Source: Coriobacteriales bacterium (GTDB lineage: Bacteria > Actinomycetota > Coriobacteriia > Coriobacteriales > UBA8131). From it: a stretch of DNA of 64,000 nt. The stretch covers positions 23,160-87,159 of the forward strand of contig JAITRZ010000014.1 of the NCBI GenBank assembly GCA_031288185.1. The letters run 5' to 3'. The notes below the pieces were generated by a model. The model was not told the DNA's origin and ran no database searches. It saw nothing but the letters and a program-made list of their open reading frames with translations. Below, in pieces: positions 20,596 to 30,548 of this stretch; within the stretch, counting starts at the first letter, position 1; each line of letters begins with the position of its first letter. The position numbers and the translations under genes were made by a program.

Positions 20596-21417
20596 ATGTC
20601 GAAAAAGGCAATGGTGATCGACCTGACACGCTGCGCGGGATGTTATGCCTGTGTGGTGGCCTGCCAGATGCAGAACAACACCCGGCCGGGTGTTGCCTGG
20701 AACCAGGTGGAGCGCTGCGAGTGGGGTGACTATCCCGAGGCCGGACGCTCGTATCTGCCGCACGCGTGCATGCAGTGCGAAGCGGCTTCGTGTGTGGAAG
20801 CCTGTCCCACAGGCGCAAGTTATACGCGTGAAGACGGTATTACCTTGGTAAACTATGATGAGTGTATCTGTTGCGAACAGTGCGTACACGCCTGTCCCTA
20901 CGGCGCTCGCCGTGTCAATACCGCCAACGCCTATTGGTTTGAGGCTGCCGTACCCACACCCTATGAGGGCTATGGCATCCAACGAACCGATGTAGTAGAA
21001 AAATGTATTTTTTGTAACGAGTTGGTAGATGCCGGCGGTCAGCCAGCCTGTGTGGCTAACTGTCCTGGTGGAGCGCGTGTCTTTGGCGACATCGATGACA
21101 TGGAAAGCGCGGTGGCCCAAAAGGCTGCTGGGGCGCTTCGCATCGATAAAACCAGCTTTTATTATGTACCCGTAAAAGGAATGCCGGACGAGATAATTAC
21201 AGGAAAGGTTCTTGCGGCCAAACCTGCCCCGCGTAGCGGGCGTAAGCCTGCGGCTGATGCCACCCCGGCGCTGGTGGGGGCTGGGGTTGTGGCCGCTGCC
21301 GCCGTAGGTGCCGCAGTGGGTTATGGCGCGCGAGGGCTGCGCGAGGGCGGCAGGCGTGATGCAGCTGGTACAAGCGAAATTCAGGATACTGCCGGCAAGG
21401 GTGGTGAGCAATCATGA
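20596..21417 (+). CDS. 4Fe-4S dicluster electron-transfer subunit (DmsB/PsrB/NrfC-like)
   Basis: CAGCYACVVACQMQN, CMQCEAASCVEACPTGA, CICCEQCVHACPYGAR, CIFCNELVDAGGQPACVANCPGGAR. Confidence 0.9.
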   Translation: MSKKAMVIDLTRCAGCYACVVACQMQNNTRPGVAWNQVERCEWGDYPEAGRSYLPHACMQCEAASCVEACPTGASYTREDGITLVNYDECICCEQCVHACPYGARRVNTANAYWFEAAVPTPYEGYGIQRTDVVEKCIFCNELVDAGGQPACVANCPGGARVFGDIDDMESAVAQKAAGALRIDKTSFYYVPVKGMPDEIITGKVLAAKPAPRSGRKPAADATPALVGAGVVAAAAVGAAVGYGARGLREGGRRDAAGTSEIQDTAGKGGEQS

Positions 21418-23654
21418 CCGCCTTATCAAGACGCAATTTTGTGAAAGGAGCCGCCTGCGCGGTTGCGGCTGTGGCTGGCGCTTCCCTTGGTTTTAGATCC
21501 GGAGGCATTGACTTTTATTATCCCCAGGAAGCCTTTGCGGATGAGAATTCACCTATAGAGCGGCGCTACAGCTACTGCGATATGTGTAATCATGTACCCA
21601 AATGCGGCATCGTCGCCTCAGTGCGTGAGGATAAGGTAATCCGTGTTGAAAGTCGCGACAAGTATCCTTCTACACCACTGTGCGCAAAGGGCATCGCTTC
21701 ACTGCAGGAACTCTATGATCCACATCGTCTGCTTACTCCCAAAATCCGTACCAACGCCAAGGGGGGTCCGGCGGAATGGAAGGATATAACCTGGGACGAG
21801 GCCTACAGCATACTTGCTGAAAGGCTCAACCGCGTTAAGGCGCAGCACGGCGCGGATTCCGTCCTCTTCTTTTGCGGCGATCCAAAAGAACCGCGCGGTG
21901 CCATGCAGCGTCTGGCTACACTCTTTGGCTCGTCAAGCTATGGTACAGAAAGTAGCGTTTGCGCGGCGGCCAGCTGGATGTGCGCGCAGTTGGTCTTTGG
22001 TCAAAACTCGATGGGTGAAAACCCTTCTGATGCTTCTGCCTCCTGTCTGATATGGAGCCTGAACCCCGCATGGTCGCAGCCCAACCGTTATGGCGTGCTC
22101 ATGAAGCAGAAGGAACGGGGGTGTAAGTTTGTGGTAGTAGACCCGCGCGTTACGCCTACGGTCACCGGCATGGCTGACATCCACCTTCAACTGCGCCCCG
22201 GCTCAGACGGTGCTCTGGCAGCGGGTTTTATCAATCAACTCATCGAGCAGGATCTCATTGATCACAACTTTGTGGACAACTGGACCCACGGCTTTGAGGA
22301 GCTAAAAGCCTATGTGGCCGCGTATACGCCTCAGAAAGTAGAAGAGATAACCTGGGTGCCGGCTGACAGGCTGATTGCCGCAGCCAAACTGATAGGGGAG
22401 AACAAGCCTGGCACTTTGATTACCTCCTCCAAGGGAGGCTGCCACACCACCAATGTGGGACACTTTCAGCGTGCAGTGTTTATGATTCCGGCCTTGTTGG
22501 GCAACCTGGATGTTACCGGCGGACTGCCGCTTGGTCCCGGTTTGCCCTTTGACTATGCGGCCTCCACTAAGGGATTTCAGTTGGAGGATGTCTATGAGGC
22601 CGAGGGATTTCAACAGCGCCGCTATGATCGTGAAGATTTTCCGGTCTGGGCTCGTTATTACAAGATGATGCAGACGGTCAAACTACCGGAGTACGTTGAT
22701 GAGGGCAAGATTCGCGCCGGTGTTTTGTTGGGTGTCAACTCAATGATGTGGCCCAACACGCCGCTGTATCAAAAGGCCATTGCGGATTTGGAGTTTTCTG
22801 TAGCCATCGACTATTATCTGCGTCCGGTGACTCACGATCTGGTTGACATGGTGCTGCCGGCGGCCATGTGTTATGAACGAAGCGCCGCTCTGGCAATTTT
22901 TGGCCGTAAGATTTTTCTGCGTGAGCCGGTTGTTACCCCACGGGGAGAAGCCCGCGAGGACTGGCGCATCATCCTGGAAATTGGGTGCGCGCTTGGATAC
23001 GCCGAGCAATGCTTTAACGGTGATGTTGATGCAGCATTAGAAGAACTGCTGCGTACCACCAATCTTGGCATCACTCTGGCCGACCTGCGAGCCAACCCCC
23101 AGGGATATGACGTACCTGGCCCAGCCGCAGCCCAGCGTAAGTATGAGACCGGTGGCCTGCGCAACGATAAGCAGCCAGGTTTTAACACGCCCTCCGGCAA
23201 GGTTGAATTGGTAAGCACGGTGCTTGAGGACATGAACTTTGTGGGCTTGCCTGTCTATGAAGAACCGCTGCATAGTCCCTTTACCGCTGATGCCAAAGAC
23301 TACCCGCTTGTCTTAAACACCGGCTCGCGCGTACCTTACTATACCCACTCAAAACTGCGCGATCTGCCCTGGCTCAACCAGTTCATGCCCAATCCGGTTG
23401 TGCGTATCTCTTCCAAGGATGCCTCTGAACGCGGTTTGGTCGAAGGTGAATTGGCGCGTGTCTACAACGCACAGGGCGAGGTTGAGATGCAGGTAGAGAT
23501 AACCAACATGGTATTGCCCGGCGTTGTTGACATCTTTCATGGTTGGGAGCGTGCCGATATTAATCTCCTTACCACGCGCGACTTTGACCCCATCAGCGGT
23601 TTTCCGCCGTTTAGTAATGGGCTCTGTCAGGTTGCCAGCCTACAGGCCAGGTGA
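21414..23654 (+). CDS. Molybdopterin-dependent oxidoreductase, DMSO-reductase superfamily, Tat-exported catalytic subunit
   Basis: Tat motif SRRNFVKGAA; 4Fe-4S motif YCDMCNHVPKCGI...CAKG; molybdopterin-binding motifs; overlaps upstream gene by ATGA. Confidence 0.88.
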   Translation: MTALSRRNFVKGAACAVAAVAGASLGFRSGGIDFYYPQEAFADENSPIERRYSYCDMCNHVPKCGIVASVREDKVIRVESRDKYPSTPLCAKGIASLQELYDPHRLLTPKIRTNAKGGPAEWKDITWDEAYSILAERLNRVKAQHGADSVLFFCGDPKEPRGAMQRLATLFGSSSYGTESSVCAAASWMCAQLVFGQNSMGENPSDASASCLIWSLNPAWSQPNRYGVLMKQKERGCKFVVVDPRVTPTVTGMADIHLQLRPGSDGALAAGFINQLIEQDLIDHNFVDNWTHGFEELKAYVAAYTPQKVEEITWVPADRLIAAAKLIGENKPGTLITSSKGGCHTTNVGHFQRAVFMIPALLGNLDVTGGLPLGPGLPFDYAASTKGFQLEDVYEAEGFQQRRYDREDFPVWARYYKMMQTVKLPEYVDEGKIRAGVLLGVNSMMWPNTPLYQKAIADLEFSVAIDYYLRPVTHDLVDMVLPAAMCYERSAALAIFGRKIFLREPVVTPRGEAREDWRIILEIGCALGYAEQCFNGDVDAALEELLRTTNLGITLADLRANPQGYDVPGPAAAQRKYETGGLRNDKQPGFNTPSGKVELVSTVLEDMNFVGLPVYEEPLHSPFTADAKDYPLVLNTGSRVPYYTHSKLRDLPWLNQFMPNPVVRISSKDASERGLVEGELARVYNAQGEVEMQVEITNMVLPGVVDIFHGWERADINLLTTRDFDPISGFPPFSNGLCQVASLQAR

Positions 23655-23659
23655 GGTTC

Positions 23660-24445
23660 ATGAGCAAGGATACCAAAAGACCCAATCTGGATGACGCTCA
23701 CGAGCTGGACATGCGTGACGCAGGTTTGGATGATGCTCACAAGCCGGACATGCTGTCGCGCGCCAACCGGCGCGCGCGAATTGGCATGGTTGCGGCAATC
23801 GCGGCGGTGCTTGTGATAGCGGTAGCCTGCGGTGGTTGGGTTTGGCATGAGGATCCCAGTTTCTGTGGTGCCATCTGCCATGAACCGATGGACACCTATG
23901 TATCCGGGTATTATGCTAGCCCCGGACAGGTCACTACCGATGCCTATGGTGGCGACGCTTCGGCCATGCTTGTGACAACGCATGCCTCCGAGGGTGTCAG
24001 CTGCCTGCAGTGCCACCCACCTGATATTGCCCAGCAAATAGGTGAATTAAGCACCTGGCTCTCTGGTAACTATGACTATCCGCTGGTAGAAAAGGATGTG
24101 AAGCAGCTGCTTGTTGACGCGCATCAACCCGTTCAGGGCAATGGATCAGAATTCTGTCTGGTGGAAGGCTGCCATGTGGACGCAGACGGCAATCCGCTCA
24201 CTGAAGAAAGCCTAAGAAGCACCCTTGCGGGAAAGCCAGGATATACGTATCGCAACCCGCATGTGGCACCTTCTGGCTCACCCCACGGCCTTTTGGAATA
24301 TACCTGTTCAGATTGCCATAAGTCACATCGTGCCTCTACCAACGCCTGTACGCGCTGTCACTATGACCTGGTACCCCTCCTGCCCGACGGCTGGGAACCC
24401 TGGGCAATCAATGCGGGGGTTTTGTCTCAGGTACATCTTCAGTAA
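23660..24445 (+). CDS. Membrane-anchored multihaem cytochrome c
   Basis: N-terminal TM (VAAIAAVLVIAVACGGWVW); haem motifs CGAICH, CLQCH, CLVEGCH, CSDCH, CTRCH. Confidence 0.82.
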   Translation: MSKDTKRPNLDDAHELDMRDAGLDDAHKPDMLSRANRRARIGMVAAIAAVLVIAVACGGWVWHEDPSFCGAICHEPMDTYVSGYYASPGQVTTDAYGGDASAMLVTTHASEGVSCLQCHPPDIAQQIGELSTWLSGNYDYPLVEKDVKQLLVDAHQPVQGNGSEFCLVEGCHVDADGNPLTEESLRSTLAGKPGYTYRNPHVAPSGSPHGLLEYTCSDCHKSHRASTNACTRCHYDLVPLLPDGWEPWAINAGVLSQVHLQ

Positions 24446-24722: not shown

Positions 24723-24751
24723 TTGACATTTGAGTCCTCATTGTGCACTAT
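24723..24751 (+). promoter_or_regulatory. Candidate sigma-70-type promoter for the T-box transcript
   Basis: TTGACA (24723-24728), 17-nt spacer, weak -10 CACTAT (24746-24751). Confidence 0.35.
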
Positions 24752-24759
24752 AGGTGCCA

Positions 24760-25256
24760 ACGCGTTGACGGAGAGAAGGATGGCGTATCCTGTTTGGGGC
24801 GAATGTCCCGTCCAGAGAGTCCGCGGTTGCTGTGAGCGGATAGCAGAACGACATGTATGTACACTCCTGAGCGGATCACCTGAAAGCCACCTACCTTTTG
24901 GGCGCCTGTGCTTGCCATGAGCAGGCCGGTGGTGTCCAGGCGGCCACTTGCCAGGGCGCTGAGGCACCCAAACCTTAATGGCGCGTAGCGATTGTTGAGG
25001 GGAGGCGGCCGTCAGGGCAGTGCGTTGCTAGCAACAGAGGTATCGGCAACATCCAGGTGGCAGATGCCGCCTGCGAGCAATGAGCAAGTAGGGTGATACG
25101 GGTGCCCCCCGTTATAGGGCTGGGATTAGGAGCCTGACCCGGGCTTTGATCCGATGAGAGGCGGCTTGGCCGCAACCGGGGTGGTACCGCGGAAGTCTTG
25201 AGAGCTTTCGTCCCCGGGCAAGTGTTTTGCCCGGAGAGGAAGGCTTTTTTCTTTTC
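24760..25256 (+). ncRNA. T-box leader riboswitch with antiterminator/terminator
   Basis: Stem I signature CCAGAGAGTCCGCGGTTGCTGTGAGCGGA...GTACACTCCTGAGCGGATCACCTGAA; T-box sequence AACCGGGGTGGTACCGCGG (25174-25192); terminator CCGGGCAAGTGTTTTGCCCGG...GGAAGGCTTTTTT. Confidence 0.9.
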
Positions 25257-25328
25257 CTCCCGAGCGGTCATGTAACGCTCCGTCGGCCCTGGTCCGAGGC
25301 CGGGAGCACAGAGAATGGGAGGCCCCCT

Positions 25329-26777
25329 ATGGACACAGTGAAGTTAAGCAGTGGTGAGTTTGTGCCTTTGGAAATGCATAAGGCGCGCATTGTCCAGCGC
25401 ATTACTCTGGAGCCCATCGAACAACGCAAGCGGGCGATAGAAGAAGCAGGCTTTAATACTTTTTTGCTTAAAAACCGGCATGTCTTTCTCGATATGCTCA
25501 CCGATAGCGGCGTCAATGCCATGAGCATTGAGCAGCAGGCAGCCATGCTGCTGGCTGACGATAGCTATGCGGGCTCTGAGACCTATTACCGTCTGGAGCA
25601 GGCACTCATGGATTTTTTTGGTACACGCTATTTTTTGCCAACCCATCAGGGTCGCGCCGCAGAAAACGTTTTAGCTAACAGCTTTATACAACCCGGCTTG
25701 GTAGCACTGATGAATTTTCACTTTACTACTACCAAAGCCCTCGTCACTCTGCGGGGAGGTTCAGTTCTAGAACTGGTTTCAGAGGCTGGCCTGGAGATTG
25801 AGAGCGATCTGCCCTTCAAGGGTGACTTTGACCTCGCGAGCCTGAACGCTGAGATTGAACGTTTGGGCACGGACAACATTGCCTTTGTGCGTGCCGAAGC
25901 TGGTACCAACCTTATCGGCGGTCAACCAATTTCCATGGGCAACATGCGAGCGGTCTCAGCTGTCTGTAAAGAAAAGGGCCTGCTTTCGGTGCTGGATGCC
26001 AGCCTATTGGCAGACAACCTCTACTTTATCAAAACCCGCGAAGCCGGCTTTGCTGATGTTGACCTGGCCACTATCACCCGCGAACTGGGCCAGCTCTTCG
26101 ATATTATCTACTTTAGCGCCCGCAAATTGGGTTGTGTGCGCGGTGGTGGTATCGTCACCAATAACGAGGAGCTCTACAAACAGATGCGTGGTTTTGTGCC
26201 GCTGTTTGAGGGGTTTCTGACGTATGGTGGCATGTCGGTGCGCGAGATGGAAGCGCTGGCAGTGGGCCTGCGCGAAACCCTGGATTTTGATGTCATCAGC
26301 CAGACGCCGATTTTTGTCAGGGCACTTACCGAGGAGTTAACCAGGAAGGGTGTGCCCACGGTGACACCGGCAGGCGGTCTGGGCTGCCATATAAACGCTT
26401 TCAAGTTTCTACCCCATATTAAGCAGAGCCACTACCCGGCTGGAGCCCTGGCGGCGGCGGTGTTCCTGGCCGGCGGTATTCGTGGCATGGAGCGCGGCAC
26501 CCTTTCAGAACAGCGCAATCCCGATGGCAGTGAGCCGTTGGCCGAGATGGAATTGCTGCGTCTGGCCTTTCCCAAAAGGGTATTTTCGCTTTCCCAGGTA
26601 AAGTACATTGCCGATCGAGTGGCCTGGCTGTTTGCCAACCGCGAACTGGTGGGAGGGCTGCGCTTTGTGGAAGAGCCACCAACACTCCGCTTTTTCTTTG
26701 GTCGCCTGGAACCCCTGGGAAACTGGCCGCAGCAATTGGTTGATGCCTTCCGTTGCGACTTTGGCGACAGCCTGTGA
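25329..26777 (+). CDS. Tryptophanase / tyrosine phenol-lyase family PLP-dependent beta-eliminating lyase (divergent)
   Basis: LTDSGVNAMS, SYAGSETYYRLE, PTHQGRAAEN, NLIGGQPISMGNMRAV, PLP-lysine region FSARKLG, GIRGMERG, LRFFFGRL. Confidence 0.85.
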   Translation: MDTVKLSSGEFVPLEMHKARIVQRITLEPIEQRKRAIEEAGFNTFLLKNRHVFLDMLTDSGVNAMSIEQQAAMLLADDSYAGSETYYRLEQALMDFFGTRYFLPTHQGRAAENVLANSFIQPGLVALMNFHFTTTKALVTLRGGSVLELVSEAGLEIESDLPFKGDFDLASLNAEIERLGTDNIAFVRAEAGTNLIGGQPISMGNMRAVSAVCKEKGLLSVLDASLLADNLYFIKTREAGFADVDLATITRELGQLFDIIYFSARKLGCVRGGGIVTNNEELYKQMRGFVPLFEGFLTYGGMSVREMEALAVGLRETLDFDVISQTPIFVRALTEELTRKGVPTVTPAGGLGCHINAFKFLPHIKQSHYPAGALAAAVFLAGGIRGMERGTLSEQRNPDGSEPLAEMELLRLAFPKRVFSLSQVKYIADRVAWLFANRELVGGLRFVEEPPTLRFFFGRLEPLGNWPQQLVDAFRCDFGDSL

Positions 26778-27078
26778 GGCCACCGGGTGCCTATTTTGCT
26801 TATTATATTAGTATTTCACCAACCTCGTTCCAACTGCTGGTGAGACTGCTGGCCTGATGTATTGCCCCCTCTTGCCCGTTTTGTTGTAGAATGGCAAGCC
26901 GTGCTGGTTCTGTAGACCTCCCTGGGATTTCCTGAAACATCTAACAGACAGCATATCGACCGATCTCCGCGCTATCAGGTACAGGTTTTTTGAAGAGGAC
27001 TGTACCGGGGAGATGTACGACCGACCCCCGTGCCAGCAAACGCGGGGATCCAGACAGACCTGAAGGCAGGTGATAGTT

Positions 27079-27696
27079 ATGAGCAAGGCAGACGATGTCA
27101 AAAACGCTACCCCGGATAGAACGCCTCCGGGCAGTATTGGCGCTAAAATAACAGAATTGCGGGAAGCCTTGCTGTTGTCGCCTGAGGATCTGGCTGAGCG
27201 TTGCGGTTGTGCGGTGCAGGTTATTACGGATCTGGAGGGCGGACAATTGGCGCCTTCACTGGCTCCGCTTATCAAGATTACGCGAGCTTTGGGTGTGCGT
27301 CTGGGCACCCTGCTTGATGACGATGAAAACCTGGGACCGGTGCTCACCAGGGCCAACGCCTACAAGGGTTCTACGCGCCTGAAGGGCCTGGAGACACACA
27401 GCGACGCAGGTGAGCTCAGTTTCTTTTCGCTGGCCGAAGGTAAGGCTGCCCGTCACATGGAGCCCTTTTTTATCAGTCTGGAACCCTCCCAGGACCTGGA
27501 ACACAGCCTCAGCGCCCATGAGGGTGAGGAATGGCTGTTTGCTCTGGAAGGTTCGCTTGAGATAGAGTACGGAAAACAACTCTTCATCCTTGAACCCGGC
27601 GATAGCATTTACTATGATTCCATCGTGCCCCATCAGGTTCGCTCCCATAACGGCCAGAGCGCTCGCTTTGTGGCCTGTGTCTACACGCCGGTGTAG
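27079..27696 (+). CDS. XRE-family HTH regulator with C-terminal cupin domain
   Basis: [57 protein letters not shown] plus cupin [42 protein letters not shown]. Confidence 0.88.
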
Positions 27697-29417: not shown

Positions 29418-30548
29418 CTAATCCTTGGCTATCTCGCGTTCCAGTAGATGGATCTTGATAAGGTCAGGATGTATCACCGCCTCCTGTGGCTGACCAAGGG
29501 CGGCAAGCAGGACAACGCGCAGGCCATCCCGCGCGGCGGCGGCGTTGACCAGCATCTCCTCAAACAGCACGTCAACGTCAAACGGCTCAAGAAGAGGCGG
29601 CAGGTTGAGACTGGTCAGTAGGGATTCCTGTTGGGTTGTGAGCTCCCTGGAGGCGTTGATAACCTCCTCGGCCAGCCTGGCACAGTAACGCATACCCTCT
29701 GCCAGGGCGCGACCAGAGGCAACGGGCGCAGTGGGTGCGGCAGCCGACACGGCTAGTGCCACAGCCTCCAGGGCGTGCGCGAACGGCCGGCCATAGCTCT
29801 GGTAGGCACATGTTTCTGTAGCGTTGGCGTTGGTGGTAAGGGCGAGCGCTCGAAAAGCGAGGGTTTGAACTATGGCCTCCTGAAGGCTGGCTTCATCATG
29901 CGCCACCAGCCCCTCGACGTTATTGTGTAACCACTCCAGCGAACCCCCGCCTTCCAGCAGGGCCGTTTGGGCAATTTCCGCAAAGCCGTTTTCCCAATCG
30001 GCCCTTGAGTTCGCGGCCAGCGATTGGAGGTCACAGGTCGCGTACACCGGCAAGCTGTCAGTCACAATCCGGTCGCTGGCAGTTCCCATATCAAGGGCCG
30101 CATGGTTTGCCAGGGTGTGGCCCACCATGGCGGCCAGCGTCACCGGTACACGCACCAGGGGGAGACCGCCTTGGTAGACTGCTGATGCAAATCCTGCCGC
30201 GTCCAACACCGCCTCTCCACCCAGAGCGACAATCAGGGTGCCGCGCCTAGTATCTAAAAGCGTTATTTGTTTAAGCAATTTAAGAACCGCCGGAGCGGAC
30301 TTGGCCGCGCGGCCAGACGGCAGGGTTATCTCTGCGACGGTAAACGCTGCCTTTGACAAACCGGCCCTGGCTTTTTGCAGGGATGCGGGAGAAATAAGCG
30401 CGTCGGTTACTAAAATCGCGTTGTCTGTGGTACTGGTAAGGAGGGTATCGCGCAGGTGCACCCCCAGGTTTACCAACAGGCGATTGCCCACACGTATATC
30501 AAAACGGTGCTTTTCATCAATGATCGCGCGCAGGCGACGGGTTCCCAT
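29418..30548 (-). CDS. 3-dehydroquinate synthase-like protein lacking expected catalytic/metal residues
   Basis: AroB-fold pattern LIVALGGEAVLDAAGFASAVYQGGLPLVRVPVTLAAMVG...YGRPFAHALE...SGRALAEGM, aligned by eye with AroB GGGVxGDLAGF...GHTxGHAIE...HGEAVxxGM. Confidence 0.65.
   Translation of the reverse strand: MGTRRLRAIIDEKHRFDIRVGNRLLVNLGVHLRDTLLTSTTDNAILVTDALISPASLQKARAGLSKAAFTVAEITLPSGRAAKSAPAVLKLLKQITLLDTRRGTLIVALGGEAVLDAAGFASAVYQGGLPLVRVPVTLAAMVGHTLANHAALDMGTASDRIVTDSLPVYATCDLQSLAANSRADWENGFAEIAQTALLEGGGSLEWLHNNVEGLVAHDEASLQEAIVQTLAFRALALTTNANATETCAYQSYGRPFAHALEAVALAVSAAAPTAPVASGRALAEGMRYCARLAEEVINASRELTTQQESLLTSLNLPPLLEPFDVDVLFEEMLVNAAAARDGLRVVLLAALGQPQEAVIHPDLIKIHLLEREIAKD

Follow-up and report, generated by a model that had tools for sequence, protein, structure and literature searches.

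The window analysed here is a 64,000-nucleotide stretch of a Coriobacteriales genome (G000). At the locus under study, a promoter, a T-box leader RNA and an intrinsic terminator are followed by a 482-codon gene for a PLP enzyme of the tyrosine phenol-lyase (TPL)/tryptophanase (TnaA) family (Table 1). The original prediction had described a stem I, a T-box sequence and a strong terminator before such a homologue, and all of these were confirmed by Rfam, RNA folding and profile matches. The next gene in the window, about 300 nt downstream of the lyase, encodes an XRE-cupin regulator. In G008, the other species of the genus, the lyase is followed by a convergent gene and so has a transcript to itself; the T-box appears to control the lyase only. 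Two neighbouring regions may be mentioned: about 200 nt at 26880-27081, possibly structured, lie before the XRE-cupin regulator and a CoA ligase and gave no Rfam match at the gathering threshold, and an apparent operon 5' of the T-box (20596-24445) encodes an Fe-S protein, a molybdopterin oxidoreductase and a CxxCH-rich protein, the last of which has no Pfam match.

Table 1. Features of the T-box/lyase locus (positions in the window).
Feature	Position	Strand	Basis or remarks
Promoter	24723-24751	+	TTGACA, 17-nt spacer, CACTAT
T-box leader (RF00230)	24756-25218	+	Rfam covariance-model match, 65.9 bits, E 5.9e-14 (cmscan of 801 bases)
Stem I	24770-24867	+	Helices also formed in G008 and G021
Stem I base helix	GGAG 24770-24773 / CUCC 24864-24867	+	Three genomes
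Stem I helix	AUGGCGU 24780-24786 / ACGACAU 24848-24854	+	
Stem I helix	CUGUU 24790-24794 / AGCAG 24842-24846	+	Two-sided changes between genomes
AGAGAG	24814-24819	+	Within stem I
Specifier codon UAC (Tyr)	24860-24862	+	Rfam alignment, family register, invariance in G000, G008 and G021
T-box sequence AACCGGGGUGGUACCGCGG	25174-25192	+	Rfam alignment, cross-genome comparison
Antiterminator	25178-25215	+	GGGG/CCCC and inner helix around the 7-nt UGGUACC bulge; UGGU at 25182-25185
Intrinsic terminator	25203-25250	+	AGCUUUC..CCGGGCAA hairpin, then U-run
TPL/TnaA-family PLP enzyme, 482 aa	25329-26777	+	NCBIfam NF009709, Pfam Beta_elim_lyase; ATG at 25329, stop at 26777, ribosome site GGGAGG at 25317-25322

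The covariance-model search that the original prediction had called for matched the leader to RF00230, also at whole-genome scale (E 3.2e-14). The score lies below the Rfam gathering score of 93, probably owing to an insertion of about 200 nt between stem I and the antiterminator. RF00230 matches were found in 25 of the 33 genomes of the bacterial family and, because only one of these 25 passes the gathering score, this cut-off is too strict for the T-boxes of the family. The promoter arrangement directly 5' of stem I is kept as TTGACA-17-CACTAT in G000 and G008 and as TTGACA-17-CATCAT in G021; an automatic promoter scan misses it, the -10 element having just three of six matches. Stem I is supported by comparison and not by energy, because it gave no signal when folded alone without constraints (z +1.5): its helices form in three genomes, and CUGUU/AGCAG becomes CCGGU/ACCGG in G008, with both sides altered. 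Further downstream, GCUUUCGUCCCC is common to the terminator and the antiterminator. The T-box part alone takes up the antiterminator fold, and extending the folded segment yields the terminator hairpin instead, as is expected for a transcriptional T-box. The UGGN bulge lies within an antiterminator that competes with the terminator. The terminator region has a fold z-score of -2.68 (beaten by 1 of 200 shuffles), and its outer helix is kept in G000, G008 and G021.

The specifier loop of stem I is bounded by the GGAG/CUCC and AUG/CAU helices, which hold in the three genomes, and contains the tyrosine codon UAC one nucleotide 5' of the CUCC of the base helix. In 25 distinct other T-boxes of the family, the codon at this position is UGG, and in every one of them it stands six bases 5' of GAG; the register of the three UAC leaders was read separately from this count. 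Because the spacing is six in both classes, as against 1-5 nt before GAG in a published survey (PMC2494555), it is the within-family comparison that carries the register argument. The bulge is UGGC in all 25 UGG T-boxes and UGGU in the three UAC leaders. UGGU pairs with ACCA of an A73 tRNA, and the tRNA-Tyr of the same genome, with anticodon GUA and a 3' end of A73-CCA, bears out the A73 tRNA predicted from this bulge. Two other triplets were rejected as the specifier: GUA, which is AUA in G008 and G021, and UAU, which is conserved and also codes for tyrosine but is out of register. The original prediction had taken the specifier to be non-aromatic (AUC, ACC or CAC, with neither UGG nor UAY). 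The segment that it read, GAGCGGATCACCTGAA (24868-24883), extends onward from the GAG at 24869-24871, a conserved triplet at the 3' foot of stem I, and so lies past the specifier loop. It had itself named a UAC or UAU specifier, joined to ordinary lyase activity, as evidence against it, and the specifier half of this is what was found. The loop-E motif (5' AGUA / 3' GAA) is absent from the specifier loop, which has AGAAGG and GUAUGUACA instead, although most of the family's Trp T-boxes have the AGUA; we did not count the motif as essential, given the profile match, the switch and the conserved core. Judged from these comparisons of sequences, the switch and its tyrosine specificity are well supported.

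The lyase matches the broad tryptophanase subfamily NF009709 of NCBIfam above its cut-off (558.8 bits). It misses the curated cut-off of the NCBIfam TPL equivalog (408 of 720.7 bits) and stays under those of two TnaA equivalogs (367 and 326 bits). Searches by sequence and by fold both rank TPL entries first, with 34-38% identity and, for the predicted structure (pLDDT 79.9), a TM of 0.77-0.84 by query length. Five residues separate phenol-lyases from indole-lyases: T124, M288, M379, R381, and F448 (PMC5805759). The lyase carries four of them (T124, M379, R381, and F448), with F at 288, as in tryptophanase; most of the phenol-type homologues compared have L at this position. The tryptophanase residues D137, V394, I396, and H463 (TnaA numbering) are replaced by T, M, R, and F. 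Y71, N185, D214, K257 (the PLP lysine), and R404 are retained as well. At the PLP site, R217, K256, K257, and D258 (TPL numbering) are L, R, K, and L. The changes R217L, K256R, and D258L occur in all six full-length coriobacterial members, and R, K, and D in all 29 other TPL/TnaA sequences. TPL activity of the lyase is not assured, because the three residues that are constant in the 29 others are L, R, and L here. With full support, the six members group on a deep branch of their own (1.24 changes per column), apart from the sampled TPL/TnaA; this "third branch" is separate and not necessarily older, the tree having been rooted at its midpoint. The protein thus shares with TPL (EC 4.1.99.2) the fold, the PLP lysine and four pocket residues, whereas the three PLP-site changes, F at 288, the separate branch and control by a Tyr T-box set it apart.

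Lyase matches occur in just 9 of 301 genomes of the order. The leader, with promoter, specifier and terminator, is kept in both species of the genus, whose lyases are 83% identical; the third Tyr T-box (G021) runs to a contig end, and its downstream gene lies beyond the contig. No T-box was found before the 60-63% identical orthologues in other genera, and an order-wide search with the leader pattern, allowing two mismatches, gave seven further matches, all of which lack a T-box sequence and whose rate is close to that of the control. Two observations concern other TPL-like genes of the family. The gene of G029, at the ends of two contigs (L015:1501-2625 and L017:6-365), carries T124V, Y291I, M379F, R404C, and F448C, which may represent further drift or loss of function. 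In G028, a long near-perfect inverted repeat (L011:2276-2380) lies 5' of the TPL-like gene; Rfam labels it a eukaryotic microRNA, which is probably a chance match.

TPL is generally seen as a catabolic enzyme; it is also reversible and is used industrially to make tyrosine. PMC12058496 cites a bioreactor in which tyrosine is synthesised with TPL. We agree with the original prediction that induction of a "catabolic" lyase by uncharged tRNA is odd. The genes known to be under T-boxes serve aminoacylation, synthesis and transport, and among them is phenylalanine hydroxylase, another route to tyrosine; the text of the large T-box survey nowhere mentions degradation or catabolism, its targets being supply genes (PMC2494555). 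In the B. cereus group a Tyr T-box controls phenylalanine hydroxylase, a precedent with a tyrosine-supplying target (PMC2494555). With the transcriptional Tyr-class T-boxes (RF00230) of tyrS and the B. cereus-group phenylalanine hydroxylase/tyrosine operon, the present leader has in common the tyrosine specificity, stem I, specifier loop, AGAGA, UGGN bulge, and antiterminator/terminator. Unlike them, it has a TPL-like lyase as its target, the insertion of about 200 nt after stem I, and AAGG in place of the 5' AGUA of the specifier loop. No case of a T-box with a TPL-like target was met in the literature searched, most subscription journals lying outside it.

How do these organisms obtain tyrosine? 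In profile searches, on which all the gene absences given here rest, TyrA (PF02153) was not detected in any of the three genomes with a Tyr T-box (G000, G008, and G021). It is present in 24 of the 30 other family genomes (Fisher p 0.015, a value that overstates independence, as G000 and G008 share a genus), and in 5 of 6 genomes that have a TPL homologue without a Tyr T-box. The three genomes are drafts (89, 88, and 72% complete), and the probability that TyrA is missing from all of them by incompleteness alone is about 0.004. Neither species of the genus yielded PheA; chorismate synthase was found in G008 and not in G000, and no phenylalanine hydroxylase (Biopterin_H) was found as another source of tyrosine. 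Operon comparison did not serve to trace a loss of tyrA: the aroE-aroC-aroB-aroQ cluster of G008 differs in layout from the aro clusters of G018 and G029, and such dissimilar clusters show no loss directly. An AroB-like protein in the window (29418-30548, reverse strand) reaches just 129.9 of 305 bits for AroB and may be a diverged paralogue; a better AroB is encoded in G008 (L076:8365-9954).

A second T-box of the same genome, with the tryptophan specifier UGG, precedes a stand-alone TrpB2 (L018:11425-13306; TIGR01415, 578 bits). This arrangement was seen in eleven family genomes including G000, nine of which lack a detectable TrpA, and TrpA was found in neither species of the genus. The UGG T-boxes with a readable gene precede trpE-type, TrpB-like or trpD-like genes or a probable transporter, targets named from sequence starts except for the TrpB2 of G000, which was assigned by profile. 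Indole salvage is the natural reading of TrpB2 under a Trp T-box, and tyrosine formation by the TPL-like enzyme would be its parallel. Both are PLP enzymes for an aromatic amino acid under control of the cognate tRNA, and in both cases a usual pathway step is undetected; in contrast, their folds are unrelated, and TrpB2 uses indole and serine, not phenol.

Because a switch for tyrosine shortage precedes the lyase in a genus where TyrA was not found, the synthetic direction is suggested. The best explanation, to which we give a probability of roughly 0.55, is that the lyase is an anabolic or salvage tyrosine-forming enzyme, made under its tyrosine-specific T-box when tRNA-Tyr is uncharged. The T-box, its tyrosine specificity, the gene identity, the residue pattern and the undetected TyrA can be read in the sequences; from them we infer the activity of the enzyme and its physiological direction. 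The transcription-attenuating T-box (UAC, UGGU) would allow the single gene to be transcribed only with uncharged tRNA-Tyr, and the product, from a divergent third TPL/tryptophanase subfamily that keeps the phenol pocket, would form tyrosine by joining phenol, pyruvate and ammonia through a C-C bond or, alternatively, phenol and serine by beta-replacement. The phenol would presumably be environmental, and the lyase would be the counterpart of TrpB2, which would make tryptophan from indole. Four points weigh against this explanation: the PLP-site changes, the draft state of the genomes that lack TyrA, the contig end that hides the target in G021, and the orthologues of other genera before which no T-box was found. 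What remains of the original suggestion of an enzyme that may form an amino acid concerns tyrosine, and not isoleucine or threonine. More tentatively, and with somewhat less than even confidence, we propose that a natural tyrosine synthase has replaced prephenate dehydrogenase in one genus, drawing on environmental phenol, switched by uncharged tRNA-Tyr and paired with indole salvage by TrpB2.

Other readings must be weighed against this one. The subfamily may no longer be a TPL and may catalyse another reaction, e.g., as a C-S lyase or in beta-replacement with a different aromatic, the link to tyrosine being indirect through a precursor or analogue. The deep separate branch, the three PLP-site changes fixed in its six members, after which the chemistry may differ from that of TPL, and a thiocysteine lyase domain among the structural matches speak for such a shift; however, the retained pocket and PLP-site residues and the rank of TPL entries in both searches do not, and we regard it as rather unlikely. 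An ordinary catabolic TPL that acquired a Tyr T-box by chance, its expression on starvation being maladaptive or serving to win pyruvate and ammonia from scavenged amino acids, tyrosine-derived or other, would agree with the family membership, the TPL-type pocket and the general view of TPL. Conservation of the leader in two species, and its recurrence before the contig end in G021, tell against chance acquisition, as do the supply genes under the surveyed T-boxes (PMC2494555), and this explanation seems improbable. The original proposal of a T-box for Ile or Thr, and of an enzyme that handles some other amino acid, can be given hardly any weight: UGGU would also suit those A73 tRNAs, but the quoted triplets fall outside the specifier loop, on the 3' side of the conserved GAG, whereas UAC is inside the loop, in register and invariant.

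The specificity of a T-box points strongly to the direction in which the enzyme under its control works in the cell, and a Tyr T-box on a relative of TPL argues for an anabolic branch in a family known as degradative. The fixed changes at the PLP site mark where the direction or type of the reaction may have shifted, and a tyrosine-forming lyase is a testable alternative to TyrA. If the proposed tyrosine synthesis is true, some anaerobes could live on phenol and indole as precursors of their aromatic amino acids.
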